Positions 26,221 to 45,580 are shown, counted from the stretch's first letter. The stretch is 64,000 nt of DNA from Deltaproteobacteria bacterium (GCA_021737785.1 JAIPDI010000032.1:1-64000), one strand, 5' to 3'. Notes: a model not told the origin generated them from the letters alone. A program made the numbers and translations.

Positions 26221-26335
26221 AATTGAGGAATTGAGGAATGAGGGATTGAGTGATTCGGGATTCCGTCTCCACTATCCGGTAACCAGTATCCAGTATCCAG
26301 TATCCAGTAACCAGCAATCAGCAACCAGGAGAAGA
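26221..26335. repeat. 7-nt-period repeat tract before mvhD
   Basis: GATTGAGG/GGAATTG-type words (26221-26265) are followed by a run of CCAGTAT heptads (about 26278-26335). The tract ends in CCAGGAG, which provides the ribosome site of mvhD. Confidence 0.75.
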
Positions 26336-26337
26336 TC

Positions 26338-26769: not shown

Positions 26770-27719
26770 TGCTCAAGTATACTGAAAAAATCCAGGAGAT
26801 CGCCAAGCGGCTGCTTCAGGAGAAAAAAATAGACGTATTCATCGGGTACAAGAAAGGATCCGTCCCCATGATGAACGAACCCCTCCTGATCACCGATCCG
26901 GATAAGGCGGACCGGCTTTACTGGGACAACTTCTGCGGTCTGAACCTGTGCAATTATCTGACCCGGCGAACCGACAAAATCGGAATCGTGGCCAACGGGT
27001 GCAATTCCCGGAACATCGTCACCCACATCATCGAAAACCAGATCCAGCGGGATCAGCTCTATATCGTGGGGATTCCGTGCGAGGGGATGATCGATCACCG
27101 GGCCGTCATGCGAGCGGTAAAGCAGAAAGAGATATCGGATATAGAACAGCATGGCAACACCTTTACCGTAAAGGGCGCCGACTTTGAAGAGACCTTTGAA
27201 AAGGAGAAATTTCTGCAAACCAACTGCGCCGTCTGCATTCACCGCAATCCGGTGATCTACGATGAGCTCTTAGGCGATCTGGTGGAAGAGCAGACCGATG
27301 TGTCGCCGTATCAGGATGTGGAAAAGGTGGAGGAGATGGACCCGGAAAAGAAACAGGGGTTCTTCACCCGGCTGATCTCCCGGTGCATCCGCTGTTATGC
27401 CTGCCGCAACGCCTGTCCCTTGTGTTACTGTCCCACCTGTTTTGTGGATGAATCAAAACCCCAGTGGGTGGGGAAGAGCAGCGATCCGACCGACACCATG
27501 ACCTTCCATCTTCTGAGGGCGTATCACTGCGCAGGGAGGTGCACGGACTGCGGGGCGTGCGAACGGGTCTGTCCCATGGGGATCTCCATGCGGCAGTTTA
27601 CCAAGAAACTCAACAAAGACTGCCAGGACCTCTTCTCGTGGGAGGCGGGGCTGACCGTTGACCAGCGACCGCCCCTGGATGTATACCGGCCGGACGACTA
27701 TAACGAGTTTATAAAATAG
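26769..27719 (+). CDS. FrhB/FdhB-like iron-sulfur flavoprotein subunit (Flx-type)
   Basis: A 316-residue protein with an FrhB/FdhB-type N-terminal half: a GIVANGCNSRN stretch near 78-88 and NCAVCIHRNP near 154-163. Two 4Fe-4S motifs follow in the C-terminal half, CIRCYACRNACPLCYCPTC (about 200-218) and CTDCGACERVCP (about 259-270). Its ATG overlaps the mvhD stop (TAATG). In related clusters such a protein relays electrons between a pyridine-nucleotide flavoprotein and MvhD-HdrA. It corresponds to one of the two iron-sulfur Flx subunits; which letter it should take is not certain from sequence. Confidence 0.8.
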   Translation: MLKYTEKIQEIAKRLLQEKKIDVFIGYKKGSVPMMNEPLLITDPDKADRLYWDNFCGLNLCNYLTRRTDKIGIVANGCNSRNIVTHIIENQIQRDQLYIVGIPCEGMIDHRAVMRAVKQKEISDIEQHGNTFTVKGADFEETFEKEKFLQTNCAVCIHRNPVIYDELLGDLVEEQTDVSPYQDVEKVEEMDPEKKQGFFTRLISRCIRCYACRNACPLCYCPTCFVDESKPQWVGKSSDPTDTMTFHLLRAYHCAGRCTDCGACERVCPMGISMRQFTKKLNKDCQDLFSWEAGLTVDQRPPLDVYRPDDYNEFIK

Positions 27720-27861
27720 GTGACTAAAGTGAACTAAAATGGTCTCACACAAAGCCACAGAGAGATACGATATTGGTTTAACATGTCCCGGCTTTTATTT
27801 TTCTTTGTGCCTTTGTGTCTCCGTGTGAGCCATCTACCGAAATGTTTCATAGAGGTCAATC

Positions 27862-28899
27862 ATGACAGATAAGATATTCACCAAGGAAGAATGGATAAAG
27901 GCGCTGGAAGGGCTGAAGGATGCCTACACCCTTTTGGTGCCTGTGAAGGACGGGGATTTTCACACCTTCATGCCCCTGAGTGAGGGGAAGACCGCTGATT
28001 TTGATTTTCAAAACAGCAGGCTTTCCCCTAAATCGGTGATCTATCCCCAATCGGAACGGCTGTTTGAATACACCCTGGACAGCGCTGACCCTGAGGCCAA
28101 CATCCTGAAGGAATCTCCAAAAGACTATTCCCCGAGAGCCGTTGTGGGAATACGGCCCTGTGACGCCCATGCATTCCAGATTGTGAAGCGCAACTTTGAT
28201 AATCCCGAGTACCGCGATCCCTGGTGGGTGCGGCATTTTGAATCGACCACCCTGATCGGCCTGGGCTGCAGCGATCCCTGTTCGACCTGCTTCTGTACCG
28301 CAGTGGGCGGGGGCCCGTTTCATGAAGAGGGCCTGGATGCCGTTATCTTCGATCTGGGGGATCGTTACCTGATCAAGGGCATTACCGACAAAGGAGAGGC
28401 GTTTCTGGCCAAGATGACCGGGGGAAGGGCCGCGGACCAGGACGATTTGAAAGCCGCGGAAGGACTGGCCGCCTCCGCCTCTAAAAAGATCACCGCATCC
28501 GTTCCCACGGACAAATTGAAGGCAAAGAAAACCAACGATCTCTTCAATGCCCCCTTCTGGGAAGAGGTCGCCTTTGGGTGTCTCAATTGCGGGACCTGCA
28601 CCTATCTCTGTCCCACCTGCTGGTGTTTTGACATCCAGGACGAGGTCTCGGGAAAAGAGGGCGACAGGATGAGGAACTGGGATTCCTGCATGTTCCCCCT
28701 CTTTACCCTTCACGGCTCCGGGCACAACCCGAGAGACGTCAAAGTCCAACGCGTTCGCCAGCGGTTCATGCACAAGCTGAAGTACTATGTGGACAAATAT
28801 GACAACGGCGTTCAATGTTCCGGCTGCGGTCGCTGCGTCCGCTACTGCCCGGTCAACATCGATATACGGGATGTCTGCGAGCGGATGAACACCTATTAG
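27862..28899 (+). CDS. 4Fe-4S dicluster subunit, AsrA/sulfhydrogenase-beta-like (Flx-type)
   Basis: A 345-residue protein resembling subunit A of anaerobic sulfite reductase and the beta subunit of sulfhydrogenases. It has CSDPCSTCFC near residue 135, then CLNCGTCTYLCPTCWC (about 240-255) and CSGCGRCVRYCP (about 318-329). It lies 142 bases after the previous gene, across a spacer with two opposed cacagag-type words (27744-27765 and 27805-27828). Together with FlxA and MvhD it would form the Flx module, passing electrons from NAD(P)H to HdrA. No siroheme or catalytic nickel ligands are seen, so an electron-transfer role is preferred. Confidence 0.85.
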   Translation: MTDKIFTKEEWIKALEGLKDAYTLLVPVKDGDFHTFMPLSEGKTADFDFQNSRLSPKSVIYPQSERLFEYTLDSADPEANILKESPKDYSPRAVVGIRPCDAHAFQIVKRNFDNPEYRDPWWVRHFESTTLIGLGCSDPCSTCFCTAVGGGPFHEEGLDAVIFDLGDRYLIKGITDKGEAFLAKMTGGRAADQDDLKAAEGLAASASKKITASVPTDKLKAKKTNDLFNAPFWEEVAFGCLNCGTCTYLCPTCWCFDIQDEVSGKEGDRMRNWDSCMFPLFTLHGSGHNPRDVKVQRVRQRFMHKLKYYVDKYDNGVQCSGCGRCVRYCPVNIDIRDVCERMNTY

Positions 28900-29116
28900 G
28901 CCCTTAGGGCGTCTATATTTATAGATCGTCTCAGAGCTTCTGTGGTCAGACGCATCTAAAGCGAATTGAGGAATTGCGAATTAAGGAATTGACGAATTGG
29001 CACGATGGAAGAACATTTGTCAAAATTCCTGAATTCCTGAATCCTGAATTCCTGAATTTCAAATATCTTTGGTTGCGGCCGTTAGGCCGCCTTGGATGTT
29101 TAAGGAGGTCACCCCC
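28900..29116. other. spacer with GAATTG repeats and leader-type hairpin before flxA
   Basis: GGAATTG words (28967-29000) are mirrored by AATTCCTGAATTCC words (29025-29060). A third clear copy of the leader hairpin follows, GGTTGCGGCC-gtta-GGCCGCC (29071-29091), then TAAGGAGG. No gene is seen. Confidence 0.7.
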
Positions 29117-29959
29117 TTGGAAAATCCGTATTTGCCCTATCCGGTCCGAATCGATCGGATCACCACCGAAACCGAGGACAGGAATCTGAAGACCTTCAGA
29201 TTTGTTTTTCTGAATCCCGAACATGAGGAGAAATTTGCCTATACGCCGGGGCAGTTTGCGGAATTATCCGTGGCGGGTAAGGGTGAAATCCCCATCGGTA
29301 TCGCATCCTCGCCCACGGAAAAGGGATTTGTCGCTTTTACGGTCAACAAGGTCGGGCTCGTCACCACCCATCTCCACAATATGAAAGAGGGGGATGTAAT
29401 GGGACTCCGGGGGCCGATGGGCAACTGGTATCCGTGGGACGAGATGGAGGGAAAAAATGTGGTCATCGTCGGCGGCGGGTTTGCCTTCACCACCCTGAGA
29501 TCCAGCATCGTCTATATGCTGCACCCCGAAAACCGACCCAGATTCAAGGACATCACCGTGGTGTACGGGGCCAGAAGCCCGGGCATGCTGCTGTACAAGG
29601 ATGAACTGGCGGCATGGGAGCAGCGGGATGACATCCATATGCATATCACGGTGGATGGTACCGATGACCCTGACTGGAAATACAATGTCGGGTTTGTCCC
29701 CACCATCACCGAACAAAAGATCAAGAGTGCGGACAACGCCATTGCCATCGTGTGCGGCCCGCCCATCATGATCCGGTTCACCCAGCCGGTCCTGGAAAAG
29801 CTGGGATTCCCGCCGGAACGGATTATCCTCTCTCTGGAAATGCGGATGAAATGCGGCATCGGGATCTGCGGCCGGTGCAATATCGGGGACAAATACGTGT
29901 GCAAGGACGGTCCTGTCTTCTCGCTCGCTCAACTCAAGGAAATGCCCCCGGAATATTAG
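29117..29959 (+). CDS. flxA: FlxA, FAD/NAD(P)H-binding oxidoreductase
   Basis: A 280-residue ferredoxin-NADP-reductase-type protein, like AsrB and the gamma subunit of sulfhydrogenase. The FAD-binding barrel includes YTPGQFAELSV and PIGIASSP (residues about 40-60). The NAD(P) domain begins VVIVGGGFAFTTLRS (about 115) and includes VYGARSPGMLLYKDEL. The C-terminal 2Fe-2S site is MKCGIGICGRCNIGDKYVCKDGP. The TTG start at 29117 is preferred because AAGGAGG lies 8 bases upstream; the ATG at 29096 would overlap that ribosome site. It would oxidise NADH or NADPH and feed MvhD-HdrA. Confidence 0.88.
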   Translation: MENPYLPYPVRIDRITTETEDRNLKTFRFVFLNPEHEEKFAYTPGQFAELSVAGKGEIPIGIASSPTEKGFVAFTVNKVGLVTTHLHNMKEGDVMGLRGPMGNWYPWDEMEGKNVVIVGGGFAFTTLRSSIVYMLHPENRPRFKDITVVYGARSPGMLLYKDELAAWEQRDDIHMHITVDGTDDPDWKYNVGFVPTITEQKIKSADNAIAIVCGPPIMIRFTQPVLEKLGFPPERIILSLEMRMKCGIGICGRCNIGDKYVCKDGPVFSLAQLKEMPPEY

Positions 29960-30211: not shown

Positions 30212-32521
30212 ATGAATGGAAACCATCAGTTGATCAAGAGGGGCGCGCAATCACGGATAACGCTGAAGGCCGCCATCATCGGAGGAGGAAATGCCTGCCA
30301 TAACCTCCTGATGCTCCTTAGCGACGAACGTCTGACACGGTTAAGACTGGAAATCGTGGGCGTAGCAGATCCTGATCCGGAGGCCCCCGGTATGGTCCGG
30401 GCCATGGAGATGGGAATCTTCACCACCTCTGATTTCACCGATCTTTATCCCCTTCCGGGTCTGAATCTTCTCATTGAATTGACCGGTTCCATGGATATCA
30501 GGGAACGAATGATCCGCACCAAGCCCCTTCACATCAGTTCTATCGACCATCGGGGGGCCCGTCTATTCTGGGACCTGATCCAGATAGAAGTGGAAACGCA
30601 GCAACTTCAACAGGCCTCGAAAGAGGCCATCCGAAAGGAACGGGACTGGTCCCAGAAGTTTATTGATTCCCTTGCCGACAAGATCATGGTGCTGAACAGG
30701 GACCGCACCATCCATCGGGTCAACAGGACCTTTCTGAGGGAAAGCGGGGTCACCGAAGAGACCGTACTGGGGAAACCCTGTTATGAGATCACCCGCCACT
30801 CCTCCGAAGTATGCAGCGGCGATGCCTTTGTCTGTCCGTTTGACAAGGTCTTGGAAACCGGTACCAGCTATTCTGCCATCCATGAGCATATGACAGGCGA
30901 CGGAAACAGGATCTTTGAAGAGATCATGGCCACCCCTATCCTGAATGATGGGGCCGAGATCGTCCAGGTCATCGAAGGGATCCGGGATGTGACCCGGCGG
31001 GTCGGCCTGCAGGAAGAGGTGCGCCGGAACAAGGAATACCTGGAAAACATCATCGTCAATTCCTCGGACATGATCATCACCACCAACCTCCAGGGGAAGG
31101 TGGTTACCTTTAATCCGGGGGCCGAACATATGCTGGGCTATACGCAGGAAGAGGTCCTGGGAACGGATATCGAAGCCCTGTGGAAGGCGCCGGAAGAGCG
31201 GCGCCGGCTCATGGCCGAGGTAAAGGCAAGAGGATTTGTGAATAATTACCCGACTACCCTCATCGGCAAAGACGATCAGGAGGTGGAGATCAGCCTCTCT
31301 TTGGCCGAACTGCGCGACAGCGAGGGGCATGTCCTGGGCACGGTGGGGATCAGCAAGGATGTCACTGAAGAGAACCGCCTTCGCCGAAAGCTCATCGAGC
31401 GGGAAATGGAGTTGCGTAAGGCCAATGATTTCATGAACAAGATCATTCAGAGTTCGCCCGATGCCATCATGGCCACAGATATGAAAGGAAACATCATCAT
31501 CTGGAATCAGGCCGCAGAGGAAACCCTCGGTTACCGGGCGACGGACGTCATCGGCAAGATGAATATTGACAGGATCTATCCCCAGGGAACAGCCAAAAGG
31601 GTCATGCAGATGATGCGAAGCCCTGAGCACGGCCCGGTCGGCAAACTGAGATCCTACCCGATGGTCTATGTCCGTCAGGACGGCGAGGTGGTGGAAGGAA
31701 ACCTCTCCTCCGCTATTATTTATGACGCCGACGGCGCTGAAACGGCCTCTGTGGGCATTTTTGTGGACCTGGAAGAACGCTTGAACATGGAACGGAAGCT
31801 CCGGCAGACCCAGGAACAGCTATTGCAATCCGAAAAGCTGGCTGCCATGGGACGATTGACCTCTCAGATCGCCCACGAGCTGAACAACCCCCTTTACGGC
31901 ATCATGAATACCCTGGAACTGCTGAAAACCGAGATCTCCCCCCAGAACAAGCGTCGAAAGATCCTGGAGATGGCCCTGTCGGAAACGGAAAGGCTCTCTG
32001 AAATGCTCCGGAAAATGTTGTCGTTCTCCAAACCCGATGAAGAAACCAAACAGCCTTCAGACATCAACAATATCCTGGACGAAATCCTCCTCCTCCACGA
32101 AAAACAGCTCCGGGAACACAGCATTACCCTGTCAATATCCCTGGGGAAAAATCTCGGAGCGGTGTATGCTTCTAAGAATCAGCTCAGGCAGGTCTTTCTC
32201 AATATGATCGCCAACGCCAGGGATGCCATGCCGGACGGGGGGACCTTGACGGTGGCCACCAGGGTGGTGGAGGATATGCTCCATATAGAATTCTCGGATA
32301 CCGGGACCGGCATCAGAAAAGAGGACCTCAGCAAAATCTTCGATGCATTTTTTACGACCAAAGACAGCATCAAGGGCGTAGGTCTCGGCCTGTCTGTCTG
32401 CTACGGGTTCATCAAAGATCACGGCGGCGATATCCGGGTGGAAAGCCATCCCGATTCCGGCACCACCTTTACCATTACCCTTCCAGTACACAAAGAAACT
32501 GCGGATCCGCCGGAGTCCTGA
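30212..32521 (+). CDS. Rossmann-domain multi-PAS sensor histidine kinase
   Basis: A 769-residue soluble kinase. Residues about 17-125 match the N-terminal domain of the kinase at 19901: AAIIGGGNACHNLLMLL and VGVADPDPEAPGMVRAMEMG, then a DLY loop. Three PAS domains follow (about 145-265, 270-395, 405-530). The H-box is QIAHELNNPLYGIMN (about 560), and the ATPase boxes are MIANARDAM, DTGTGI and GVGLGLSVCYG. It ends the hdrA-flx locus. The nearest candidate partner is the HTH-receiver protein 335 bases downstream. The Rossmann part may bind a dinucleotide, but this is not shown. Confidence 0.88.
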   Translation: MNGNHQLIKRGAQSRITLKAAIIGGGNACHNLLMLLSDERLTRLRLEIVGVADPDPEAPGMVRAMEMGIFTTSDFTDLYPLPGLNLLIELTGSMDIRERMIRTKPLHISSIDHRGARLFWDLIQIEVETQQLQQASKEAIRKERDWSQKFIDSLADKIMVLNRDRTIHRVNRTFLRESGVTEETVLGKPCYEITRHSSEVCSGDAFVCPFDKVLETGTSYSAIHEHMTGDGNRIFEEIMATPILNDGAEIVQVIEGIRDVTRRVGLQEEVRRNKEYLENIIVNSSDMIITTNLQGKVVTFNPGAEHMLGYTQEEVLGTDIEALWKAPEERRRLMAEVKARGFVNNYPTTLIGKDDQEVEISLSLAELRDSEGHVLGTVGISKDVTEENRLRRKLIEREMELRKANDFMNKIIQSSPDAIMATDMKGNIIIWNQAAEETLGYRATDVIGKMNIDRIYPQGTAKRVMQMMRSPEHGPVGKLRSYPMVYVRQDGEVVEGNLSSAIIYDADGAETASVGIFVDLEERLNMERKLRQTQEQLLQSEKLAAMGRLTSQIAHELNNPLYGIMNTLELLKTEISPQNKRRKILEMALSETERLSEMLRKMLSFSKPDEETKQPSDINNILDEILLLHEKQLREHSITLSISLGKNLGAVYASKNQLRQVFLNMIANARDAMPDGGTLTVATRVVEDMLHIEFSDTGTGIRKEDLSKIFDAFFTTKDSIKGVGLGLSVCYGFIKDHGGDIRVESHPDSGTTFTITLPVHKETADPPES

Positions 32522-32855: not shown

Positions 32856-33449
32856 ATGGAAGGCATATTGACAGTTTATAAGGCGAGCGAATACTGCAAC
32901 GTCTCGCCCAAGACCATTATCAACTGGATAGAGTCGGGGCACATCCAGGCCTATAAGACCGTCGGGGGGCACCGCCGGATCAAACAGACGGATCTTATCG
33001 CATTCATGAATCGACAGGGGATTCCTGTCCCCGAGGGGGATTCGCCGGTTGACGAACGGAAGCGGGTTCTGGTGGTGGACGACGATCCCATTATTGTGGA
33101 GACCATTGTCCAGGCCCTGGAAGAAGACGAACACGATTATGAGGTGGTCTCTGCGTCGGACGGCTTTGAGGCGGGACTGCAGGTCAACCACTTCAAGCCC
33201 CACCTGATGATCCTGGATATCATGATGCCGGATATCAAAGGGTATGAGGTGTGCCGCAAGATCAAGAGCGATGAAGCAACAAAAGAAACCCAGATTATTG
33301 TCCTGTCCGCCTATCTGGATGATGAGAAATTCAAGAAGATGAAAGAATACGGGGCCGACGTCTGCTTCTCAAAACCCTTCCCCCTGCCCCAATTAAAAAA
33401 AGAGGTGGCCAGGCTGTTGGGATTGACCACGGACGGTGAGCTGCCGTAA
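32856..33449 (+). CDS. HTH-receiver fusion regulator
   Basis: A 197-residue protein. Residues about 5-52 form an excisionase/MerR-type winged helix (YKASEYCNVSPKTIINWIES and GGHRRIKQTDLIAFM). A receiver domain follows (about 70-190) with VLVVDDDP, phospho-acceptor in LMILDIMMPD, and KPF. The DNA-binding domain lies before the receiver, the reverse of most response regulators. It stands after the multi-PAS Rossmann kinase and before the C1 genes, and could regulate either. The partner kinase is inferred from proximity only. Confidence 0.85.
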   Translation: MEGILTVYKASEYCNVSPKTIINWIESGHIQAYKTVGGHRRIKQTDLIAFMNRQGIPVPEGDSPVDERKRVLVVDDDPIIVETIVQALEEDEHDYEVVSASDGFEAGLQVNHFKPHLMILDIMMPDIKGYEVCRKIKSDEATKETQIIVLSAYLDDEKFKKMKEYGADVCFSKPFPLPQLKKEVARLLGLTTDGELP

Positions 33450-33509: not shown

Positions 33510-34385
33510 ATGAAGCTAAAGGACTCCCTCGATAAAAAACGATTTGTCGTGACCTCGGAAATCCAGTCCCCTGTCGATGGGGGCCCGGAGGCGCTCATCA
33601 AGAGCCTGGAACTGGTCAGGGGCCGCGTTGACGGCGTGGCTGTTCCGGAGTTGGATATAGAGGGGGTGGTGGGAGACAGCGTCAGGACCTGCCATCTTCT
33701 GAATCAGAACCGGTTCGAGTCCATTTATCAGACCACCACCCGGGACAAGAGCCGGCCCCAATTACAGAAGGACCTCCTGCTGGCCCATGACGCAGGGGTT
33801 GAAAATCTCCTTGTCTTTACCGAAGACTACCGGATCACCGGAGACAGCCTCCAGGAGATGATGTTTTTCCATGTGGATGCCGGGAAACTGGCCTCTGTGT
33901 TGGACCATATGCGCCAAGGGAGCACTGTGGATGGGAAGGAACTTCCGTCCAAGGCCGATTTTGTATTGGGTTCGGGGGTCGAATCTGCGTGGGGAAAGAA
34001 CGTTCCCGATCTGGAGATGAAGGAGTTGGAAGAGATGACACGGATCGGGACGGGATATTTTCTGACCACCCCGGTATTCGACCTGGGCCGGTTTGAAAAA
34101 TTCATGAAACAGGTCAAGACGTTCGGGATACCGGTCATTGCGGAGGTAATGATCCTGAGGACCGCCGGCATGGCGCAGTTTTTGAACCGCCATTTCAAAT
34201 CGGGGTTGATCCCTGACTGGATGATCAAGCGGTTGGCCAGGGCCCCGGATCGACAGAAGGCCAGTATCGACATCTTTGCGGAGACGGTCCAGGGCCTCAA
34301 AGACCTCTGCCAGGGGATCCACATCATCACCATCGGGGGTGAAGAAAAGCTGAGGCACTATCTGGATGCGGCCAAATTAAGGTAG
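33510..34385 (+). CDS. divergent MetF-family protein
   Basis: A 291-residue TIM-barrel protein of the methylenetetrahydrofolate reductase family, weakly similar to the MetF at 41745. It starts FVVTSEIQSP where MetF has FVVTSEVAPP. It has FTEDYRITGD at the flavin/folate site where canonical MetF has LTGD. ATG at 33510 has AAGGAGA upstream. The change in the LTGD element raises doubt that it is a standard MTHF reductase. It may be a subunit specialised for the Nuo/GltD-like complex encoded directly downstream, or a reductase for another pterin. Confidence 0.78.
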   Translation: MKLKDSLDKKRFVVTSEIQSPVDGGPEALIKSLELVRGRVDGVAVPELDIEGVVGDSVRTCHLLNQNRFESIYQTTTRDKSRPQLQKDLLLAHDAGVENLLVFTEDYRITGDSLQEMMFFHVDAGKLASVLDHMRQGSTVDGKELPSKADFVLGSGVESAWGKNVPDLEMKELEEMTRIGTGYFLTTPVFDLGRFEKFMKQVKTFGIPVIAEVMILRTAGMAQFLNRHFKSGLIPDWMIKRLARAPDRQKASIDIFAETVQGLKDLCQGIHIITIGGEEKLRHYLDAAKLR

Positions 34386-34389
34386 GCCC

Positions 34390-34508
34390 AGCAGTATGCA
34401 GTAGGGAGTAGCAGTATGCAGTAGGGAGTAAGGAGCAGGCAGTAAGCAAGAACGAGCATCCAGTATCCAGCATCCAGTATCCAGTGACCAGTATCCAGGA
34501 CCAGGAGA
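34390..34508. repeat. 7-nt-period repeat tract before the NuoG-like gene
   Basis: Two copies of GCAGTATGCAGTAGGGAGTA are followed by CCAGTAT/CCAGCAT heptads (about 34457-34500). It ends in CCAGGAGAA, which acts as ribosome site for the GTG start at 34516, as in the mvhD case. Confidence 0.75.
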
Positions 34509-34515: not shown

Positions 34516-37158
34516 GTGGAAGAGATCTCCCTCACCATCAATGGGACGCGGATGAGCTGCCCGCCCGGGACCACCGTCCTGGAGGCGGCAGAGGAGCACG
34601 GGATTCCAATACCCAAACTCTGTCACCATCCCGACCTCAAGCCGGTCGGGGCCTGTCGCCTATGCCTGGTGGAGGATGAAAAGAGCGGCCGGATCATGGC
34701 ATCCTGCGTCACTCCGGTGGCCCCGGACATGGAGATCCGGACAGACTCCTCCCGTGTGATGCGACACCGGAGAAACATCCTTCGTCTGATGATGGCCGAA
34801 CATCCCGAGTCGTGCCTGGTCTGCAGCAAGGGAAACCGATGTCAGTTGCGCGAGCTTGCCGGTCAGATGGGACTGGGGGAGACCGGGCTTTATCCCACCC
34901 CCAATTACAAGGCGATCGAGCTGGCCAACCCGTTCATCATTCGGGACCTGAGCAAGTGTATCCTGTGCGGAAGATGTATCCGTGCAGACCATGAACTGGT
35001 GGTGGCCGGGGCCATCGACTATCATATGAGGGGCTTTGCTTCGCGACCGGCCACCCTCTACGATCTTCCCCTGGAATCCTCTTCCTGCACGTTCTGCGGA
35101 ACCTGTGTATCCATCTGTCCCACCGGGGCACTGACGCCCAGGATGGGCGGCCATGTGGGGACGCCCGAGCGAGAGGCGTTGACCACCTGCGGTTTCTGTG
35201 GGGTGGGCTGTTCCATCCGCATCGGGGTGGCCGGGCAAAAGGCCGTAGAAATAAATCCCTCCGGTCTTCCCGGTTCCGTAAACGCCGCCACCCTTTGTGT
35301 TCGAGGGCATTTTGCACACGACTTCCTCAACAGCCGCGAGCGGTTGACGCAGCCCCTGATCCGCAGGGACAACGACCTCACCCCGGTATCCTGGGATGAG
35401 GCCCTCGATTATGTTGCCGGCCGCCTCCTGGATATCAAGAAAGAGGACGGCCCTCAAAGTATCGGCTTTTTCGGGTCTTCAAAATGCACCAATGAGGAAA
35501 ACTACCTCTTCCAGAAGCTGGCCAGGGTCCTGGTGGGTACAAATAACGTGGACAATGGCGGATTCATGGCCGGAAGGGAGGCCCTCCAGGTGGTGGAAGA
35601 GAAGACAGGCGGCAGGCGGCGCCCCACCCGGCTCGCGCATCTCGAGAAGGCCGAAATTATTGTCGTGTTGGGGGCCGACCCGGGGCACTCCGCCCCGGTA
35701 GTCGCCTATCACCTCAAAAGGGCCGCCCAAAAAGGTATTCCCATTATAGGGGTGGACCCTCGAAAAACAGACCTCTTCCCCTTCTCTGCACTCTGGTTGA
35801 CCGTTGTCCCGGATAAGGACGCCGAACTGATCACCTGCCTCGCCGCCCTCATGTGGAAGACATTTGCCCATGATCCCGGATTTATTGAACGATCTACAGA
35901 AGGCTTCGGTCCATACAGCGAGGCCCTTTCCTCCTTCAATCCTGAACGGCTCTGCATGGCGAGCGGATCGGAGATGGGAGCTCTGACAAAGGCGGCAGAC
36001 CTCTTGAAGGGGAAAAAGATCAGCTTTGTGGTAGGTCATGGGATCACCCAGCACCGCCATGGGGTCCAGGCAATGGAGGCCGTTTTAAATCTGGCCATGA
36101 TGACGGGGAGTCTGGCCCGTGAACCGGCGGGGCTCTATCTGTTGGCAAGGGAAAACAATCAGGTGGGGGCATGGGATATGGGGACCGTGCCCGATACCCT
36201 TCCGGGCCGTACGCCCCTTCACGAGGACTCGCGGAGAAGGGAGTGGGAACGGGCATGGGGGGTGCGGATCTCGCCGGATCAGGGATTAAATGGGGTGCGG
36301 ATGATAGAGGCGACTGAAAAGGGAATTCTCAGGGCCATGGTGATCATGGGAGAAAATCCGGTGCGAGGCCTCCCTCAACAGGAACGGGTAGCGGCGGCAT
36401 TGAAGGGCCTGGATCTCCTGGTGGTGCAGGATATCCTCCACACCGAAACCAGCCGGTTGGCGGATGTGGTTCTCCCGGGCGCCCCCTTTTCCGAGAAGGG
36501 GGGCTCCTTTACCAATATGGAGGGCAGAATCTCCTGCTTCACTCCGGTGGTACCTCCGCCCGGAGACGCCAGACCCGATTGGGAGATCCTGGACCGTTTA
36601 GGGGTGAAGATGGGATATCCCAAGGCCTATGGCTCCCTTGATGCCATACGGGCTGAAATCGCACGCCTGATTCCGATGTACGCCGGTCTCAGGGAAGACT
36701 CCGGAAAGGCCTGGACCTGGATCCGTGAAACCCAAACCAGGAGACCTTTTCGGTTTTCTCCCCTCCCGGCCGGCGATCGGGAGGAGATGGACGACGACTA
36801 TCCCCTGACCGCCATTCTGGGATCACAACGCCTTCACCTGGGAAGCGGGACCCGTACCGGCCGTTCCAAACGGATCGCCGATTTTGGGCTGAACAACGAG
36901 GTGGTCTTATCGCCGGCTGACGGGGACCGGCTGAACCTCCATACCGGGGACCGGGCTCGTGTGCAATCCCGCTTGGGCGCCCTGATCCGGGAAGTCCGCA
37001 TAGACGACACCTTACAAGCCGGACAGGTCTTCATCCCCACGGGCTTTCATGAAAACGATGCCATGAATCTGATTGAATTGACAGCACCGGGGACCGGGTC
37101 ATGGCAAGGATTCAAGACCTGTCAGGTCCGGCTTGAGACACCGGGGGTGGGAACATGA
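34516..37158 (+). CDS. NuoG/FdhA-like iron-sulfur molybdopterin-fold subunit lacking the metal-ligand Cys/Sec
   Basis: An 880-residue protein with a GTG start. The N-terminal half carries a 2Fe-2S domain (CHHPDLKPVGACRLC), a His-Cys 4Fe-4S motif (HPESCLVCSKGNRC), two 4Fe-4S motifs (CILCGRC, CTFCGTCVSICP) and the MopB cluster (CGFCGVGC, CVRGHF). The molybdopterin-like body follows formate dehydrogenase closely (KCTNEENYLFQKLARVLVGT), but where the enzyme has the Cys/Sec-His catalytic motif it reads NVDNGGFMAGREAL. A working formate dehydrogenase is therefore unlikely. It is translationally coupled to the NuoE-like gene and probably acts as the iron-sulfur core of an NADH/NADPH-linked bifurcating complex. 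Confidence 0.85.
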   Translation: MEEISLTINGTRMSCPPGTTVLEAAEEHGIPIPKLCHHPDLKPVGACRLCLVEDEKSGRIMASCVTPVAPDMEIRTDSSRVMRHRRNILRLMMAEHPESCLVCSKGNRCQLRELAGQMGLGETGLYPTPNYKAIELANPFIIRDLSKCILCGRCIRADHELVVAGAIDYHMRGFASRPATLYDLPLESSSCTFCGTCVSICPTGALTPRMGGHVGTPEREALTTCGFCGVGCSIRIGVAGQKAVEINPSGLPGSVNAATLCVRGHFAHDFLNSRERLTQPLIRRDNDLTPVSWDEALDYVAGRLLDIKKEDGPQSIGFFGSSKCTNEENYLFQKLARVLVGTNNVDNGGFMAGREALQVVEEKTGGRRRPTRLAHLEKAEIIVVLGADPGHSAPVVAYHLKRAAQKGIPIIGVDPRKTDLFPFSALWLTVVPDKDAELITCLAALMWKTFAHDPGFIERSTEGFGPYSEALSSFNPERLCMASGSEMGALTKAADLLKGKKISFVVGHGITQHRHGVQAMEAVLNLAMMTGSLAREPAGLYLLARENNQVGAWDMGTVPDTLPGRTPLHEDSRRREWERAWGVRISPDQGLNGVRMIEATEKGILRAMVIMGENPVRGLPQQERVAAALKGLDLLVVQDILHTETSRLADVVLPGAPFSEKGGSFTNMEGRISCFTPVVPPPGDARPDWEILDRLGVKMGYPKAYGSLDAIRAEIARLIPMYAGLREDSGKAWTWIRETQTRRPFRFSPLPAGDREEMDDDYPLTAILGSQRLHLGSGTRTGRSKRIADFGLNNEVVLSPADGDRLNLHTGDRARVQSRLGALIREVRIDDTLQAGQVFIPTGFHENDAMNLIELTAPGTGSWQGFKTCQVRLETPGVGT

Positions 37159-37643
37159 TGCCGCAAGAGATCGACTGGACCCGGATTTCATCCATCATCG
37201 AAAAACACAAGGGCGAGCCATGGGGCCTTATCCCCCTCCTGCAGGATATCCAGGAGGCCATCGGATACATCCCGCCCAAAGCCATAGAACCGATCAGTGA
37301 GGCCCTTCATCTTTTTCCCGCCCAGGTCCAGGGCGTGGTCACCTTTTATGCCGGGTTCAGCACCACGCCCAAAGGGAAATACGTGGTCAGGGTCTGCCGG
37401 GGAACCGCCTGCCATGTAAAGGGCGGAAAGAGCATCCTGCGGGTCATGAAAAAGGAGTTGGGCCTCGAGGAAGGGGAGACCAGTCCCGATTATCAGTTCA
37501 CCCTGGAGACCGTCGCCTGCCTGGGCGCCTGCTTTCTGGCCCCCACCATGATGGTCAATCGGACCTATTACGGAAGGCTTTCCCCTCCCAAGGTGAGCAC
37601 CATATTGGCCCAGTTCCGCAAACAGGAAAGAGAGTCGGAATAA
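37155..37643 (+). CDS. NuoE-like 2Fe-2S subunit
   Basis: A 162-residue thioredoxin-fold ferredoxin of the NuoE/HndA type. It has CRGTACHVKG (residues about 78-87) and CLGACFLAP (about 119-127), which bind a 2Fe-2S cluster. Its start overlaps the preceding stop (ATGA), and the NuoF-like gene follows after 3 bases. It would pass electrons from the FMN subunit. The set NuoG-NuoE-NuoF in this order is typical of soluble formate dehydrogenase, hydrogenase and Stn-type complexes. Confidence 0.92.
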   Translation: MMPQEIDWTRISSIIEKHKGEPWGLIPLLQDIQEAIGYIPPKAIEPISEALHLFPAQVQGVVTFYAGFSTTPKGKYVVRVCRGTACHVKGGKSILRVMKKELGLEEGETSPDYQFTLETVACLGACFLAPTMMVNRTYYGRLSPPKVSTILAQFRKQERESE

Positions 37644-37646: not shown

Positions 37647-40600
37647 ATGGAAAAGCTATCATCCGTTGGACAACTGGAATGGCTCCGCAACCGGATCCTG
37701 GCTCAGATGGACGATCGGAAGACCGTGGTCCAGGTCTGCATGACCGGGTGCCGGGCCTACGGGTCTGCAGATGTCAAATCCTCGCTGGAAGCCGAGGTCG
37801 AGCGACAGGGCCTTTCAGACCGGGTGGAGATACGGGCCACCGGGTGTCATGGATTCTGCGCCAAGGCCCCGGTGATCGCCATTGAGCCGATGGGGATTCA
37901 GTATCAGGAGGTGGGGCCTGAAGATGCGGCGGAGATCATCGACCGGACGGTGAAACAGCGTGGTTTGATCGACCGTCTCGCCTATCACGATCCGAAGACG
38001 GGAAATCCCATCTTCTACAGGAATCAGATTCCCTTTTACAGCAAACAGGAGAGACGGATTTTGGCCAACTGCGGCCGCATCGACCCCACCCGGATCGAGG
38101 ATTATATCGCGGCGGGCGGCTACCAGGCCATTATCAAGGCATTGACCCGAATGACCCCTGAAGAGGTGATCCAGGAGGTGATCACCGCGCAATTGAGAGG
38201 GAGGGGCGGCGCCGGCTTTTCCACCGGACTCAAATGGCGGTTTGCACGCCAGGCCCCGGGCCGGCCCAAGTACATCATCTGCAACGCGGACGAAGGCGAT
38301 CCAGGGGCGTTCATGGACAGGGCCATCCTGGAAGGGGATCCTCACGCCGTCCTGGAAGGGATGCTCATCGGGGCCTACGCCATCGGCGCCGAACACGGGT
38401 ATGTATATGTGCGTGAGGAATATCCGATTGCAGTGGAACATCTGACCATCGCCCTCGAGCAGATGACCGAACTTGGGCTCCTGGGCCGGAATATCCTGGG
38501 AACCGGATTCCATTTCGATCTCAGATTAAAGATGGGGGCCGGGGCCTTTGTCTGCGGCGAGGAGACCGCCCTCATGGCCTCTATTGAAGGAAAACGGGGA
38601 ATGCCCCGGGCCAGGCCGCCCTTTCCCGCCCAGGCAGGGTTAGGGGGAAAGCCCACCAACATCAATAATGTGGAGACCTGGGCCAATATCCCCCCGCTCA
38701 TCCGGAGGGGGGCCGGATGGTACAGCGAGGTGGGAACCGAGAAAAGCAAGGGGACCAAGATCTTCTCCCTGGCCGGAAAGGTCAACAACACGGGCCTGGT
38801 GGAGGTGCCCATCGGCGTGACGGTGAGAGAGGTGGTCTTCGACATCGGGGGCGGCATCCCCAAGGGGAGACAGTTCAAGGCCGTGCAGATGGGGGGCCCC
38901 TCGGGCGGGTGCGTGCCGCCTCAGCATCTCAATCTCCCGATCGACTACGACACCCTGCAACGTATCGGCGCCATCATGGGTTCCGGCGGCATGGTGGTCA
39001 TGGACGAAAACAACTGCATGGTGGAGATCGCCCGGTTTTTCCTGAGCTTCACCCAGTCGGAATCGTGCGGCAAGTGTGCGCCCTGCCGGCTGGGCACCAC
39101 CCAGCTCCTGGAGATCCTGACCCGGATTACCCAGGGCCGGGGGAAGATCACGGATATCCAGACCATCCGGGACCTGGGGGAGACCATCACCGAGACGGCC
39201 CTCTGCGGCCTGGGCCAGACCTGCGCCAAGCCGGCCCTTTCCACGCTCAGGTACTTTTCAAAGGAGTATGAAGACCATATCCTGGAACAGCGCTGCGCAG
39301 GGGCCGCCTGTGACGCCATGGTCATCTCGGCGTGCCAGCATGCCTGCCCTGCCGGGATCGATGTCCCCAATTACGTTGCGGCCATTGCCAGGGGAAACAA
39401 TGAAAAGGCGGTCGAGATTATTCGGGAACGGAACCCTTTCCCGGCCGTGTGCGGACGCATCTGCATTCACCCCTGTGAATTCAAATGCCGGCGCGGCGAA
39501 CTGGATGATCCCGTTGCCATCCGGTCCCTCAAGCGCTTTGCCTCGGACTGGTACTTTCGGAACATCGGGAGGCGGGAGGCCCCGTTTCCCGTGACCAGGT
39601 CCGGGAAGGTCGCCGTGGTCGGGGCGGGTCCCGCCGGTCTGACCTGCGCCTATTTCCTGGCCGAGATGGGGTATCGGGTCATCGTGTATGAAGCCCAGCC
39701 CGTTGCCGGCGGCATGCTGGGCCTGGCGATCCCTGAATTCCGGCTTCCCCGGGACGTTATTCAGGAGGAGATCGCCTATATCGAAAGCTGCGGGGTAGAG
39801 ATCCGCTACAACTCGCCCATAGATGCCAAACACACGGTCAACGACCTCATGAACGAAGGCCACGACGCCGTGTTTATCGCGGCCGGGGCCCAGGCCAGCA
39901 GACGGATCGGGATACCCGGCGAGGAAGAGGGCCTGGAAGGATTGGCCTACGGTCTGGCGTTCCTCACGGATGTGAGAATGGGAAGGCCGATGGAACTGAA
40001 AGGAAAAACCGTGGTGGTGGGAGGGGGGAATGTGGCCATCGATGTGGCCAGGACCGCCCTCCGGACAGGGGCCGGGGACGTACAGATATTCTGCCTCGAA
40101 TCCCGCCAGGAAATGCCGGCATGGGAAAAAGAGATCGAAGAGGCCCTCGAGGAAGGAATCGTCATTAACGCGTCGTGGGGGCCTCGCCGCATCCTCAGCG
40201 CGGAGGGTCGCGTAACCGGCATTGAATTTGTCCGATGCATCTCGGTGTTCGATGAAGAGGGAAAATTCAATCCCCGTTTCGATGAGTCCGCCACCCAGAT
40301 CGTTGAGGCCGATCACGTGTTCATCTCCATCGGCCAGGCCCCGGATCCTTCCTTCCTCTCGGAAGACGGGCAGTTGGAAAGGGCCCTGTGGGGAACCCTG
40401 GCGGTAAATGAGAACACCCTTTCCACCAACATCAAGGGGGTCTTTGCCGGCGGCGATTTTACCACCGGACCCACGTACCTCATCAGGGCCATTGCCTCGG
40501 GGAGAAGGGCGGCCTTGGCCATCCATCAGTATCTGGAAGGGGATACCGGGAGGATCCGGATCCCGGATGAAAAGACGGCCCTGGCCGAGGACGCGGGCCT

Positions 40601-40778
40601 GGCCCTTGAACAGGAAACCGTTGAAGATCGGCCCAGGATTCAGGTGGCGCTCGAAACCCCGGACGACAGGGTGAAGGACTTCAGGGAAATAGAGAGGGGA
40701 TTCACGGCAGAACAGGCCATCTGGGAAGCCGGTCGGTGTCTCAGGTGCGATCTGGAAAAGGAGAGGAGTCGCTCATGA
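37647..40778 (+). CDS. NuoF-GltD/NfnB fusion, NADH/NADPH flavoprotein
   Basis: A 1043-residue fusion. The N-terminal 2Fe-2S domain has CMTGC...TGCHGFC (residues about 32-72). The NuoF core (about 130-540) has the NADH/FMN motifs GRGGAGFSTGLKW and NADEGDPGAF and the cluster SCGKCAPCRLGTT. A GltD/NfnB-like half follows (about 555-1030), with CxxxCPAGIDVPNY and CGRICIHPCEFKCRRG cluster ligands, FAD motif GAGPAGLTCAYFL and nucleotide motif [14 protein letters not shown]. The segment after that motif reads CLESRQEMPA, without the Arg pair of NADPH-specific NfnB. The arrangement matches the StnB-type subunit of Sporomusa transhydrogenase. It overlaps metV by 4 bases. Confidence 0.9.
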   Translation: MEKLSSVGQLEWLRNRILAQMDDRKTVVQVCMTGCRAYGSADVKSSLEAEVERQGLSDRVEIRATGCHGFCAKAPVIAIEPMGIQYQEVGPEDAAEIIDRTVKQRGLIDRLAYHDPKTGNPIFYRNQIPFYSKQERRILANCGRIDPTRIEDYIAAGGYQAIIKALTRMTPEEVIQEVITAQLRGRGGAGFSTGLKWRFARQAPGRPKYIICNADEGDPGAFMDRAILEGDPHAVLEGMLIGAYAIGAEHGYVYVREEYPIAVEHLTIALEQMTELGLLGRNILGTGFHFDLRLKMGAGAFVCGEETALMASIEGKRGMPRARPPFPAQAGLGGKPTNINNVETWANIPPLIRRGAGWYSEVGTEKSKGTKIFSLAGKVNNTGLVEVPIGVTVREVVFDIGGGIPKGRQFKAVQMGGPSGGCVPPQHLNLPIDYDTLQRIGAIMGSGGMVVMDENNCMVEIARFFLSFTQSESCGKCAPCRLGTTQLLEILTRITQGRGKITDIQTIRDLGETITETALCGLGQTCAKPALSTLRYFSKEYEDHILEQRCAGAACDAMVISACQHACPAGIDVPNYVAAIARGNNEKAVEIIRERNPFPAVCGRICIHPCEFKCRRGELDDPVAIRSLKRFASDWYFRNIGRREAPFPVTRSGKVAVVGAGPAGLTCAYFLAEMGYRVIVYEAQPVAGGMLGLAIPEFRLPRDVIQEEIAYIESCGVEIRYNSPIDAKHTVNDLMNEGHDAVFIAAGAQASRRIGIPGEEEGLEGLAYGLAFLTDVRMGRPMELKGKTVVVGGGNVAIDVARTALRTGAGDVQIFCLESRQEMPAWEKEIEEALEEGIVINASWGPRRILSAEGRVTGIEFVRCISVFDEEGKFNPRFDESATQIVEADHVFISIGQAPDPSFLSEDGQLERALWGTLAVNENTLSTNIKGVFAGGDFTTGPTYLIRAIASGRRAALAIHQYLEGDTGRIRIPDEKTALAEDAGLALEQETVEDRPRIQVALETPDDRVKDFREIERGFTAEQAIWEAGRCLRCDLEKERSRS

Positions 40779-41425
40779 TCAGATCCATTACCCAGCAAAA
40801 AACCGAAGCGGAGCTGGATCAACTCCTGGACGGCCTGGCAAGGGTCTTTATCATCGGATGCGGGACCTGCCCCACCATGACCCATACGGGGGGCCTTCAA
40901 GAGGTGGAGGCCATGAGGAAACAGCTCTCGGAAAAAGGGAAGATGGTGACCGGAGACACGGTCCTGGCCGTGGCCTGCGACAACCTGACGCAGGAGGCCC
41001 TCGACCAGTACGGCACCCGCATAGACCAGGCGGATGTTCTCCTGATCATGGCCTGCGCCTTCGGCGTTCAGAATATCGCCAGGCAGTCCAAAAAAATGGT
41101 CGTCCCTGCCCTGGATACCCTCTTCATCGGAAAGGAGACCCAATCAGGACAATTTGACGAGGTCTGTACCCAGTGCGGGGACTGCATCCTGGGCGAGACC
41201 GGCGGGATCTGCCCGGTCACCTCCTGTCACAAGGGCCTGGTAAACGGGCCGTGCGGAGGCACCAACAACGGGAAGTGCGAGATCGACAGCGACAAGGACT
41301 GCGCCTGGACCCTCATCTATAACCGGCTGAAGGACCTGAACCGGCTCGACGCCATGCGGAGGCTTCAGAAACCCCGAAATCATCAGGCAGCGCTGCGGCC
41401 GGGGAAGTGGAGGCTGGATACTTGA
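40775..41425 (+). CDS. metV: MetV, zinc/iron-sulfur partner of methylene-THF reductase
   Basis: A 216-residue protein of the MTHFR C-terminal/MetV family. It has IGCGTCPTMTHTGG (residues about 27-40) and a cysteine-rich C-terminal region, CTQCGDCILGETGGICPVTSC (described here by positions about 129-149) with NGPCGGTNNGKCE. The start at 40775 overlaps the NuoF-GltD stop (ATGA), so the proteins are coupled and probably in one complex. In acetogens MetV forms a complex with MetF and relays electrons to its flavin. The metF gene lies 320 bases downstream. Confidence 0.9.
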   Translation: MIRSITQQKTEAELDQLLDGLARVFIIGCGTCPTMTHTGGLQEVEAMRKQLSEKGKMVTGDTVLAVACDNLTQEALDQYGTRIDQADVLLIMACAFGVQNIARQSKKMVVPALDTLFIGKETQSGQFDEVCTQCGDCILGETGGICPVTSCHKGLVNGPCGGTNNGKCEIDSDKDCAWTLIYNRLKDLNRLDAMRRLQKPRNHQAALRPGKWRLDT

Positions 41426-41744
41426 TACTTGATACTTGATACTTGATACTGGATACTGGATGCCGGATACTGGATGCCGGTCGTAGCGAAGCGGAGATCC
41501 CGCTGAAAAGCGGGACTGGATGCTCGTTTCCGGGTACTGCCTACTGCCTACTCCCTACTGCATACTGCTACCGGCCTTTCCGTCCGCTGGTTTCAGATAC
41601 TTGGGTCCGGCGAACAGCTGATGGGTCATAGCTGATAGCTGATGGCTAACGGCTTAACAGCTTAGCGGCTCAACCGCTTCATCACCCTGCGCCTGGCGCC
41701 TGACGCCTTGCGCCTTAACCTTTACCTGCCACACGAGGTCTGTC
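41426..41744. repeat. composite heptad-repeat element between metV and metF
   Basis: Tandem GATACTT/GATACTG heptads (41418-41478) are followed by a 68-base block (41466-41533) identical to 61935-62002. The block contains CCCGCT-GAAA-AGCGGG, a hairpin with a GNRA-type loop. Then come TACTGCC-type heptads and AGCTGATAGCTGATGG words. No gene is seen. Confidence 0.85.
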
Positions 41745-42632
41745 ATGGTTTCCGCATTTAAGAAGGCCCTCGACTCGGGGAAATTCGTTGTCACCTCCGA
41801 GGTAGCGCCCCCAAAGGGAACGAACCTGGACAAGATGGCCCACCACATTGAACTCCTCAAAGACCGGGTGGATGCCATGAATGTGACCGATCATCAGAGT
41901 TCGGTCATGCGATTTCCTTCGCTGGGGGGGGCGCTCCTGGTGAGGGAAATGGGCGGGGAACCCATCTTGCAGATGACGTGCCGGGACCGCAACCGGCTGG
42001 CCCTCCAGGCCGACCTCCTTTTTGCGCATCAGCGGGGTATCCATAATGTCCTCTGCCTGACCGGGGATGCGGTCATCTTCGGCGACCACAAGGAGGCCAA
42101 AGGGGTCTTTGACCTCGATTCCAGCCAACTGCTCGCCGCCATTCGAAGGCTGGAGAAGGGAGAGGACCTTGGCGGAAATAAGCTGGAGGGGGACCTCTCC
42201 TTCTGTGCCGGGGCCATTGTCACCCCCGAGGCCAACCCCCTGGAACCCCAGCTCGTCAAGTTTGAAAAAAAGATCGAGGCAGGGGCCGAGTACATACAGA
42301 CCCAGGCGGTCTACGATCTGGACCACTTCAAGGGGTTCATGGACTATGCCCGGCAATTCCCGGTCAAGGTCCTGGCAGGCATCATCCTACTTACCTCCGC
42401 CCCCATGGCCCGCTTCATGAACAAGAACGTGGCCGGGGTGAACGTTCCCCAGGCCCTCATCGACGAGATGGCCGCAGCGCCCAAGGGGAGGGCACTGGAC
42501 AAGGGAATCGAGATCGCCGGCCGTATGATCAAACGGGTCAAAGACGAAAAGATGTGCCACGGCGTGCACATCATGGCCATCGGCAAGGAAGAGCTGGTCC
42601 CCGACATCATGTCCGCTGCAGGCCTGGGCTAG
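41745..42632 (+). CDS. metF: MetF, methylenetetrahydrofolate reductase
   Basis: A 295-residue TIM-barrel flavoprotein reducing methylene-THF to methyl-THF, or the reverse during acetate oxidation. The N-terminus FVVTSEVAPPKGT carries the catalytic Glu. NVTDHQSS and NVLCLTGDAVIFGDH are typical of the family, and YIQTQAVYDLDHF is the MetF substrate-site strand. ATG at 41745 follows a weak ribosome site. It belongs with metV and the Nuo/GltD-like genes, forming the C1 branch of the Wood-Ljungdahl pathway. Confidence 0.93.
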   Translation: MVSAFKKALDSGKFVVTSEVAPPKGTNLDKMAHHIELLKDRVDAMNVTDHQSSVMRFPSLGGALLVREMGGEPILQMTCRDRNRLALQADLLFAHQRGIHNVLCLTGDAVIFGDHKEAKGVFDLDSSQLLAAIRRLEKGEDLGGNKLEGDLSFCAGAIVTPEANPLEPQLVKFEKKIEAGAEYIQTQAVYDLDHFKGFMDYARQFPVKVLAGIILLTSAPMARFMNKNVAGVNVPQALIDEMAAAPKGRALDKGIEIAGRMIKRVKDEKMCHGVHIMAIGKEELVPDIMSAAGLG

Positions 42633-45430: not shown

Positions 45431-45580
45431 GGCCTGTTAGCTGTTGGGCTCATTAGCTGCTGAGCTGATAAGGAGAGAGACTTCGCGCCAGAACTAAAGG
45501 CTTAACAGCTTATCAGCTATCAGCCATGAACCAGTATCCAGAATCCAGCATCCAGTATCCAGTATCCAGCATCCAGTCCC
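45431..45580. repeat. heptad-repeat spacer, helicase / acyl-CoA dehydrogenase
   Basis: AGCTGTTGGGCTCATTAGCTG-type words are followed by CCAGTATCCAG heptads (about 45532-45572). They match the families at 26278, 34457, 41430, 48290 and 61900. No gene is seen. Confidence 0.7.

Follow-up and report, generated by a model that had tools for sequence, protein, structure and literature searches.

The gene at positions 34516 to 37158 of a 64,000-nucleotide stretch of DNA from a Deltaproteobacteria bacterium (GCA_021737785.1 JAIPDI010000032.1:1-64000; the whole stretch is here called the window) encodes a protein, here called NuoG′, that descends from the alpha subunit of formate dehydrogenase (FDH) and has lost the catalytic residues of that enzyme. 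NuoG′ lies in an operon with homologs of NuoE and NuoF and with genes for MetV and the methylene-tetrahydrofolate (methylene-THF) reductase MetF. We consider it probable, at about 0.62, that NuoG′ is an FDH alpha subunit without metallopterin chemistry that has been kept as an electron-transfer and docking subunit, in the position called BfuA, of a multisubunit methylene-THF reductase. The evidence is drawn from sequence, and most of the relatives compared are metagenome-assembled genomes (MAGs). Genomes of the order (85), the phylum Desulfobacterota (395), and Chloroflexota (251) were searched along with a named genome collection, and the 76 orthologs counted were clustered at 97% identity into 75 distinct ones, with early-branching relatives additional to these.

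Loss of the formate dehydrogenase active site

The following features were located in NuoG′, with residue numbers 44, 140, 141, 333, 335, and 581 being those of Escherichia coli FdhF.

34516 to 37158, plus strand: FDH-derived, catalytically dead alpha subunit (NuoG′, BfuA or "NuoG" position), 880 amino acids; from reading frame, Pfam, alignment, tree, and fold
34987 to 34989, plus strand: Asp158, where the second ferredoxin-type [4Fe-4S] cluster (A4) would have its fourth Cys ligand; from alignment
35302 to 35304, plus strand: Arg263, at FDH-invariant Lys44; from alignment
35542 to 35595, plus strand: former active-site loop TNNVDNGGFMAGREALQV, residues 343 to 360; from alignment to E. coli FdhF
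35569 to 35574, plus strand: Ala352-Gly353, at the place of FdhF Cys/Sec140-His141; from ungapped alignment
36145 to 36153, plus strand: Ala544-Arg545-Glu546, at the FDH motif R333-G334-Q335; from alignment
36823 to 36825, plus strand: Ser770, at FDH-invariant Arg581; from alignment

The open reading frame starts with GTG and contains no in-frame stop or TGA, so NuoG′ does not contain selenocysteine (Sec). The Pfam matches are Fer2_4, NADH-G_4Fe-4S_3, Fer4, Molybdop_Fe4S4, Molybdopterin, and Molydop_binding, and both the FDH-like segment KCTNEENYLFQK (residues 323 to 334) and the altered loop DNGGFMAGREAL (residues 346 to 357) are present as a first-pass annotation, made from the sequence, had described them. 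That annotation had also claimed that the Cys/Sec-His motif was replaced, and the alignment, which is ungapped through the loop, bears this out by placing Ala352-Gly353 at SeCys140-His141 of FdhF. In an alignment shared with the orthologs, the [C/U]-H pair was kept in 28 of 28 active FDH relatives, and His141 was found in none of the 75 distinct orthologs, 71 of which have Gly there, as do 72 of the 76 before clustering. Position 140 was variable (Ser, Asn, Phe, Ala, or Gly) and never a conserved Cys/Sec. Other active-site residues were lost as well: Arg333 and Arg581 occurred in 0/75 orthologs, Gln335 likewise in 0/75 with Glu in its place in 69, and Lys44 in a single ortholog, with Arg in the remaining 74. 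Each of these residues and the catalytic pair are present in all or all but one of the 28 FDH relatives. A replacement Cys/Sec was sought along the loop alignment, a shifted ligand being what the first-pass annotation had named as its refutation, and none was found elsewhere in the loop. The nearest Cys, C324, is invariant in the dead clade and also stands beside the catalytic Cys/Sec in 19 of 28 active FDHs. We conclude that loss of the catalytic pair is a property of the whole clade, rather than a sequence error or chance, and that the proposed loss of formate chemistry is supported by the absence of catalytic residues across it.

Most iron-sulfur (Fe-S) ligands of NuoG′ were retained, namely those of the [2Fe-2S] cluster (C36, C47, C50, C64), the His-type [4Fe-4S] cluster (H96, C100, C103, C109), the first ferredoxin-type cluster (C148, C151, C154, C201), and the FDH-domain cluster (C225, C228, C232, C261). 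The earlier statement that all Fe-S motifs are kept was nevertheless too broad, as the second ferredoxin-type cluster combines C191, C194, and C197 with Asp158 at its fourth ligand. Asp replaces Cys there in 70 of 73 distinct orthologs, the three with Cys158 being L073, L080, and L082.

Conservation was also distributed differently in NuoG′ and in active FDHs. FDH-invariant columns were kept in at least 90% of orthologs at 29 of 32 positions in the N-terminal Fe-S module, at 11 of 29 in the active-site loop, and at 4 of 28 in the C-terminal pterin-binding domain, which is the least conserved part of NuoG′ (41% identity to the window protein). Pairwise identity among orthologs was 70% in the Fe-S module (residues 1 to 215) versus 47.5% in the FDH domain (residues 221 to 880), and the corresponding values among active FDHs were 48% versus 59%. 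We conclude that this swap of constraint is what one expects when a domain no longer serves catalysis and an electron-transfer module is held. Two more FDH-like proteins without the active-site loop or catalytic pair were encountered, G000:C61 (L221:5692-7881) and G464:C22 (L212:164-2737); their losses appear to be independent of the clade described here, and the one in the window's own genome has the loop deleted.

Descent from formate dehydrogenases

The dead proteins formed one clade inside the FDHs, with SH-aLRT support of 100 and 99 in trees of 80 and 91 rows, respectively; both trees were quick searches, and E. coli NuoG was aligned but left out of them. An AlphaFold2 model of NuoG′ (pLDDT, 89.4; pTM, 0.91) contained the complete FDH alpha fold, with TM scores of 0.92 to 0.94 to FDHs and 0.6 to 0.79 to complex I NuoG/Nqo3, and the best solved structures were the alpha subunits of NAD-dependent FDHs, FdsA/Fdh1 (6tg9, 7vw6). 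NuoG′ scored 462.5 bits against the Fdh-alpha profile (TIGR01591), under the NCBIfam cutoff of 666, and 353.9 bits against the complex I NuoG profile (TIGR01973), under the cutoff of 470. NuoG′ resembles FdsA/Fdh1 alpha and Fdh-Bfu in domain order, fold, and N-terminal Fe-S module, and differs from FdsA/Fdh1 in lacking the Mo ligand and the catalytic His and Arg, in having Arg for Lys44, and in the exchange of one cluster Cys for Asp. With complex I NuoG/Nqo3 it shares the position beside NuoE-NuoF and the loss of pterin chemistry, but it comes from another branch, keeps the second ferredoxin-type cluster site and a full C-terminal FDH domain, and has no membrane-arm Nuo genes among its identified operon neighbors in the window. 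Because the clade is nested in the FDHs and the fold is closer to FDHs than to NuoG, we conclude that NuoG′ descends from FDHs and functions in the place of NuoG (BfuA). Identity as a complex I NuoG was rejected on fold, profile score, and nesting among FDHs in trees from which E. coli NuoG was absent. The first-pass annotation's electron-transfer core "of the NuoG type" thus keeps its electron-transfer role and loses its type, since tree, fold, and profile indicate a decayed FDH alpha subunit.

Early relatives suggested how the decay may have proceeded. Adjoining the dead clade, although the larger tree does not place it as the strict sister, is an intact Cys-FDH of the Dehalococcoidia MAG CG2_30_46_9 (L093/L209; Fdh-alpha, 910 bits). 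At L209:1390-5660 the stop codon of this FDH and the metV start share 4 bp, metF follows, and no NuoE or NuoF gene was found in the flanks; as an observation in its own right, this FDH-metV-metF operon may encode a formate-linked methylene-THF reductase. L087 (UBA9088), the dead branch that splits off first, shows the order NuoG′-NuoE-NuoF-MetV-MetF, the loop DNHARLSIS, and Cys158, and its NuoF (L087:3432-5096) ends right after the B2-cluster ligands with neither a ferredoxin nor a GltD domain. The Chloroflexota relatives L211 and L206 have a GltD fusion on NuoF, with Cys158 in L211 and Asp158 in L206. Because the nearest active relative already overlaps metV-metF, the catalytic site probably died after it had joined MetVF. 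The sequences would fit an order, resting on a quick tree, in which MetVF association was followed by loss of the Mo ligand and then by the Cys-to-Asp158 change in the cluster that formerly served the Mo site, the last step with at least one apparent retention or reversal (L073, L080, and L082).

Operon and the NuoF-GltD fusion

The remaining genes of the operon and the features of NuoF-GltD are as follows.

30212 to 32521, plus strand: PAS histidine kinase, retained upstream at the majority of loci whose flanks are long enough
32856 to 33449, plus strand: response regulator (HTH_17 and receiver), conserved directly upstream
33510 to 34385, plus strand: MetF1, a conserved divergent MetF paralog; Glu28 and Asp120 kept
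37155 to 37643, plus strand: NuoE/BfuC-like [2Fe-2S] subunit; start overlaps the NuoG′ stop by 4 bp
37647 to 40778, plus strand: NuoF-GltD, a bifurcating-type BfuB (HydB) core with a C-terminal StnC-type GltD (FAD, NAD(P)H); from profile, structure, and ortholog comparison
39276 to 39278, plus strand: His544, the B2-cluster His that marks bifurcating BfuB, in 44/44 orthologs; from ortholog alignment
39288 to 40778, plus strand: GltD module from residue 548, standing where BfuB has its B3/B4 ferredoxin-like domain; Lys629 corresponds to StnC Lys170
40092 to 40121, plus strand: pyridine-nucleotide motif CLESRQEMPA; YRR in 17/43 orthologs, CLE/CME in 26/43
40775 to 41425, plus strand: MetV; ATG in an ATGA overlap with the NuoF-GltD stop, reading frame open from 40736
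41745 to 42632, plus strand: MetF2, methylene-THF reductase catalytic subunit; Glu28, Asp120, and Gln183 kept

The first-pass annotation had placed NuoE, NuoF-GltD, and MetV in the operon, and all three are there as described, together with two MetF genes. The MetV start is more likely the ATG at 40775 than position 40736. The operon is conserved across some 45 to 50 Desulfobacterota loci, Desulfoluna limicola being a cultured organism that has it, and the order HisK-RR-MetF1-NuoG′-NuoE-NuoF/GltD-MetV-MetF2 is found in most of those with enough flank. Chloroflexota share NuoG′-NuoE-NuoFGltD-MetV-MetF2, to which MetF1 and the two-component genes are additions present in most Desulfobacterota lineages. 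NuoG′ was accompanied by MetV-MetF at almost all loci with sufficient flank. Mean ortholog identity to the window proteins was about 54% for NuoG′ and 68 to 74% for NuoE, NuoF-GltD, MetV, and MetF2 (the MetF1 mean was lowered by wrong matches in truncated contigs). The NuoE motifs CRGTAC and CLGAC were near-invariant.

Several features indicated that NuoF-GltD has a bifurcating-type core. NuoF residues 28 to 593 were closest to the B subunit of a bifurcating NiFe hydrogenase (7t2r_B, NiFe-Bfu HydB; 738 bits) and next to other bifurcating HydB proteins, and nonbifurcating FdsB-type proteins scored 368 to 410 bits. The B2-cluster His is found in virtually all BfuB proteins and not in nonbifurcating homologs (PMC9304861). 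The B1, B2 (His544), and B5 ligands of BfuB and the [2Fe-2S] ligands of BfuC are present, with C550, C555, and the N-terminal [2Fe-2S] ligands in 44/44 orthologs and C31, C35, C67, and C71 in 49/49, and the B3/B4 ferredoxin-like C-terminal domain is absent, with GltD Fer4_20 and FAD domains in its stead. The GltD module matched StnC best and has the StnC-type Lys (K629) in 44/44 orthologs, whereas NfnB, with its bifurcating FAD, has Glu at the StnC Lys170 position (PMC10482914). For this reason the GltD FAD is more likely a nonbifurcating NAD(P)H port, as judged from the residue. The GltD motif differs even between close relatives (CLE in the window, YRR in L075), and YRR is the motif of NADPH-bound StnC, so such changes may be switches of NAD/NADP preference. 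They require 9 changes on the NuoG tree and 2 on the NuoF-GltD tree; as the two trees disagree, we treat the motif as a lead and did not accept it as proof of NAD versus NADP use.

The upstream genes gave further observations. MetF1, the second MetF-like protein, is conserved and has invariant residues of its own, with Thr at the folate-binding Gln183 in 34/34 orthologs and Glu at Gly119. Because of these two changes its reductase activity is doubtful, and from sequence it may be a pseudoenzyme, which is not proven. The N-terminal ~140 residues of the histidine kinase have no Pfam match and resemble in sequence a nucleotide-binding Rossmann fold (GGGNA), and the kinase at 30212 to 32521 with its response regulator is possibly a redox sensor for the operon. 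A 7-base unit, CCAGTAT/CCAGCAT, forms intergenic arrays at 26268 to 26328, 34390 to 34498, 41414 to 41568, 45531 to 45577, and 61896 to 62035 (23 matches to an 18-base pattern versus 0.02 expected), some of which flank operon genes. Elsewhere in the window, positions 4524 to 10482 (minus strand) encode HdrA/MvhD-like, HdrA-like, and AprA-like proteins, resembling aprA-qmoAB, and positions 22025 to 29959 (plus strand) encode a GltD-HdrA fusion and, after it, Fe-S proteins and HydB/HydG-like flavoproteins, both regions appearing to be further electron-transfer complexes. Positions 49366 to 52187 (plus strand) encode another molybdopterin oxidoreductase (PhsA/FDH-like) with a DmsB-like Fe-S subunit.

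Proposed function, alternatives, and significance

Two published systems resemble the operon. X-type MetVF was described as NuoEFG homologs upstream of metFV in Dethiosulfatarculus sandiegensis, Desulfobacterales, and Chloroflexi and was left unstudied (Yi et al. 2021, PMC8515935). As far as the parts of that account available to us go, our locus has the same arrangement, with NuoEFG homologs directly upstream of metFV, and the same taxonomic range, and bifurcation was speculated on there too; NuoG′ is best read as a subunit of this X type. What those parts do not contain, and what would be new here, is that the X-type "NuoG" arose by decay of an FDH, through intermediates that can be traced, and carries the Asp158 replacement, that the ferredoxin port has given way to a GltD port, that a second divergent MetF and a two-component system are present, and that an FDH-MetV-MetF operon lies near the root. 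The NuoEFG-metFV arrangement itself and StnC as an inactive FDH-like subunit were already known. The Sporomusa StnABC complex likewise has an inactive FdhF domain in its NuoG-position subunit, a GltD domain with the same Lys170, and a HydBC-type bifurcating partner (PMC7483475, PMC10482914). In Stn, however, the GltD domain is part of the NuoG-like chain and StnB retains its ferredoxin domain, whereas here NuoF carries a fused GltD where the ferredoxin domain would be, NuoG′ does not combine GltD and NuoG domains in one chain, and MetVF is present. The first-pass annotation had suggested StnA for comparison, which is the NuoE-like subunit; the proper counterpart is StnC. A literature search for an inactive FDH in a MetVF/Nuo setting gave none.

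The Bfu scheme assigns to BfuA the transfer of electrons between a third substrate and the FMN core. By our proposal, MetF2, MetV, MetF1, NuoG′, NuoE, and NuoF-GltD would form one complex, with NuoG′ physically associated with MetVF and probably without Mo or W. NAD(H) would exchange electrons with the NuoF FMN, with NuoE alongside, and the N-terminal Fe-S chain of NuoG′ (2Fe-2S, then 4Fe-4S) would pass them on to MetV and the flavin of MetF2, the presumed site of methylene-THF/methyl-THF interconversion. GltD, fused where ferredoxin normally docks, would be a second pyridine-nucleotide port via its FAD. By analogy, MetV would dock on NuoG′, and the folded dead FDH domain with its cluster may serve as a scaffold, as in StnC, where the inactive FdhF domain and its clusters lie outside the electron path and are needed for assembly (PMC10482914); Stn showed no oxidation of formate (PMC7483475). 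We tentatively suggest, at rather less than even odds, that the complex bifurcates, such that 2 NADH, methylene-THF, and NAD(P)+ (or ferredoxin) yield methyl-THF and a low-potential carrier in its reduced form, or that the reaction runs backward when methyl-THF is oxidized. NADH would be the middle-potential donor, methylene-THF the high-potential acceptor, and NAD(P)+ or ferredoxin the low-potential acceptor. The methylene-THF/methyl-THF couple has a standard potential (E0′) of −200 mV (PMC5861303), and in vivo potentials are about −280 mV for NAD and −370 mV for NADP. We conclude that energetics do not forbid bifurcation.

Several points weigh against the proposed reductase subunit or parts of it. 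Gene order alone is no proof of a complex, a gap of 320 bp separates MetV from MetF2, and we found no biochemistry in the literature for any member of the clade. Residues E613, N614, E660, and K661 are still conserved in orthologs, so the FDH domain is not free of constraint. Bifurcation cannot be universal, because L087 has neither a ferredoxin nor a GltD exit. Asp also occurs at position 158 in one intact Sec-FDH, L091, and Asp158 is therefore no proof that the Mo-side branch is out of use; with Cys also present in L073, L080, and L082, we dropped it as proof of a dead Mo-side cluster. Finally, arsenite oxidase holds its metallopterin without a protein ligand, which is why we call Mo/W absence from NuoG′ only probable. 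That NuoG′ might likewise bind Mo/W-bis(pyranopterin guanine dinucleotide) and perform another oxo or hydride transfer draws on the completeness of the FDH fold, in which the C-terminal pterin-binding domain is present, and on a loop that is not random (Gly353 in 71/75). We nonetheless think it very improbable, given that Lys44, Arg333, Gln335, Arg581, and His141 are all gone and that the pterin domain is the least conserved, with 24 of 28 FDH-invariant columns not kept at 90%. A working FDH with its catalytic Cys/Sec displaced, misaligned, or supplied by another subunit can for practical purposes be set aside, even with Fdh-alpha as the closest profile: the loop alignment is ungapped, the operon holds no FDH subunit, and a displaced Cys/Sec ligand was rejected on the lack of both an in-frame TGA and another loop Cys and on the occurrence of C324 in active FDHs. 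Moreover, the host genome has one intact Cys-FDH and two Sec-FDHs of its own. The host, a sulfate reducer with Wood-Ljungdahl genes, also encodes dsrA, a CdhC-type acetyl-CoA synthase, and five MetV genes, and it does not need NuoG′ as an FDH.

The remaining alternatives keep NuoG′ dead and change its partners or its energetics. NuoG′-NuoE-NuoF-GltD could be a free-standing Stn-like transhydrogenase that feeds a pool used by a separate MetVF, much as Stn is encoded beside Wood-Ljungdahl pathway genes and metVF yet purifies without MetVF (PMC7483475), and the GltD module is StnC-like. We judge this unlikely, as the dead subunit tracks MetV-MetF so consistently, the nearest active relative, L093, has metV-metF at a 4-bp overlap without any NuoEF, and the Stn ferredoxin domain is missing from NuoF-GltD. 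Alternatively, the complex could be a nonbifurcating NAD(P)H:methylene-THF reductase in which NuoF and GltD are alternative NADH and NADPH entries and electrons run downhill to MetF. This is our own proposal minus bifurcation, and its probability overlaps that of the proposal. Variation of the GltD motif between YRR and CLE and the absence of a ferredoxin domain from NuoF-GltD, and of both exits from L087, are consistent with it, but retention of the diagnostic B2-cluster His in 44/44 orthologs and the far closer match of the NuoF core to bifurcating HydB than to NuoF/FdsB leave it doubtful in our view. We return to NuoG′ as an electron-transfer and docking subunit of a methylene-THF reductase. 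For its lineage we can offer a speculative history, one we would not bet on: an active, formate-driven FDH with MetV and MetF, a set that persists in a Dehalococcoidia genome, would have lost its formate chemistry and then gained a bifurcating NuoEF, after which GltD would have replaced the ferredoxin port to give a present-day bifurcating complex with NAD(P)H as its low-potential partner.

The finding bears on both annotation and physiology. The first-pass annotation had warned that automatic annotation would call this gene an FDH, which fails for NuoG′ itself (462 versus the 666-bit NCBIfam cutoff) and holds for its early dead relatives L087 (804 bits) and L211 (693 bits), both above the cutoff and both without the catalytic pair. 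An FDH label on the dead clade can suggest a false metabolic link and mislead metabolic models. In a published proteogenomic model, a "second formate dehydrogenase" of unFirm_1 that neighbors nuoE, nuoF, and metVF was read as the link between CO2 reduction and methylene-THF reduction (PMC5080403), a gene set that we liken to the X type by gene arrangement and not by its sequence. The X type itself gains an anatomy, in that a subunit that cannot be catalytic is named, and the clade records the stepwise decay of a metalloenzyme, with the Mo ligand probably lost first and a wire-cluster ligand later. The means by which NADH is coupled to the methylene-/methyl-THF step has long been an open question, and the second acceptor of the Moorella MetFV-HdrABC-MvhD complex is still given as a question mark (PMC5861303). 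If the history above is true, a bifurcating methylene-THF reductase partnered with NAD(P)H would allow sulfate reducers to run the methyl branch in both directions.

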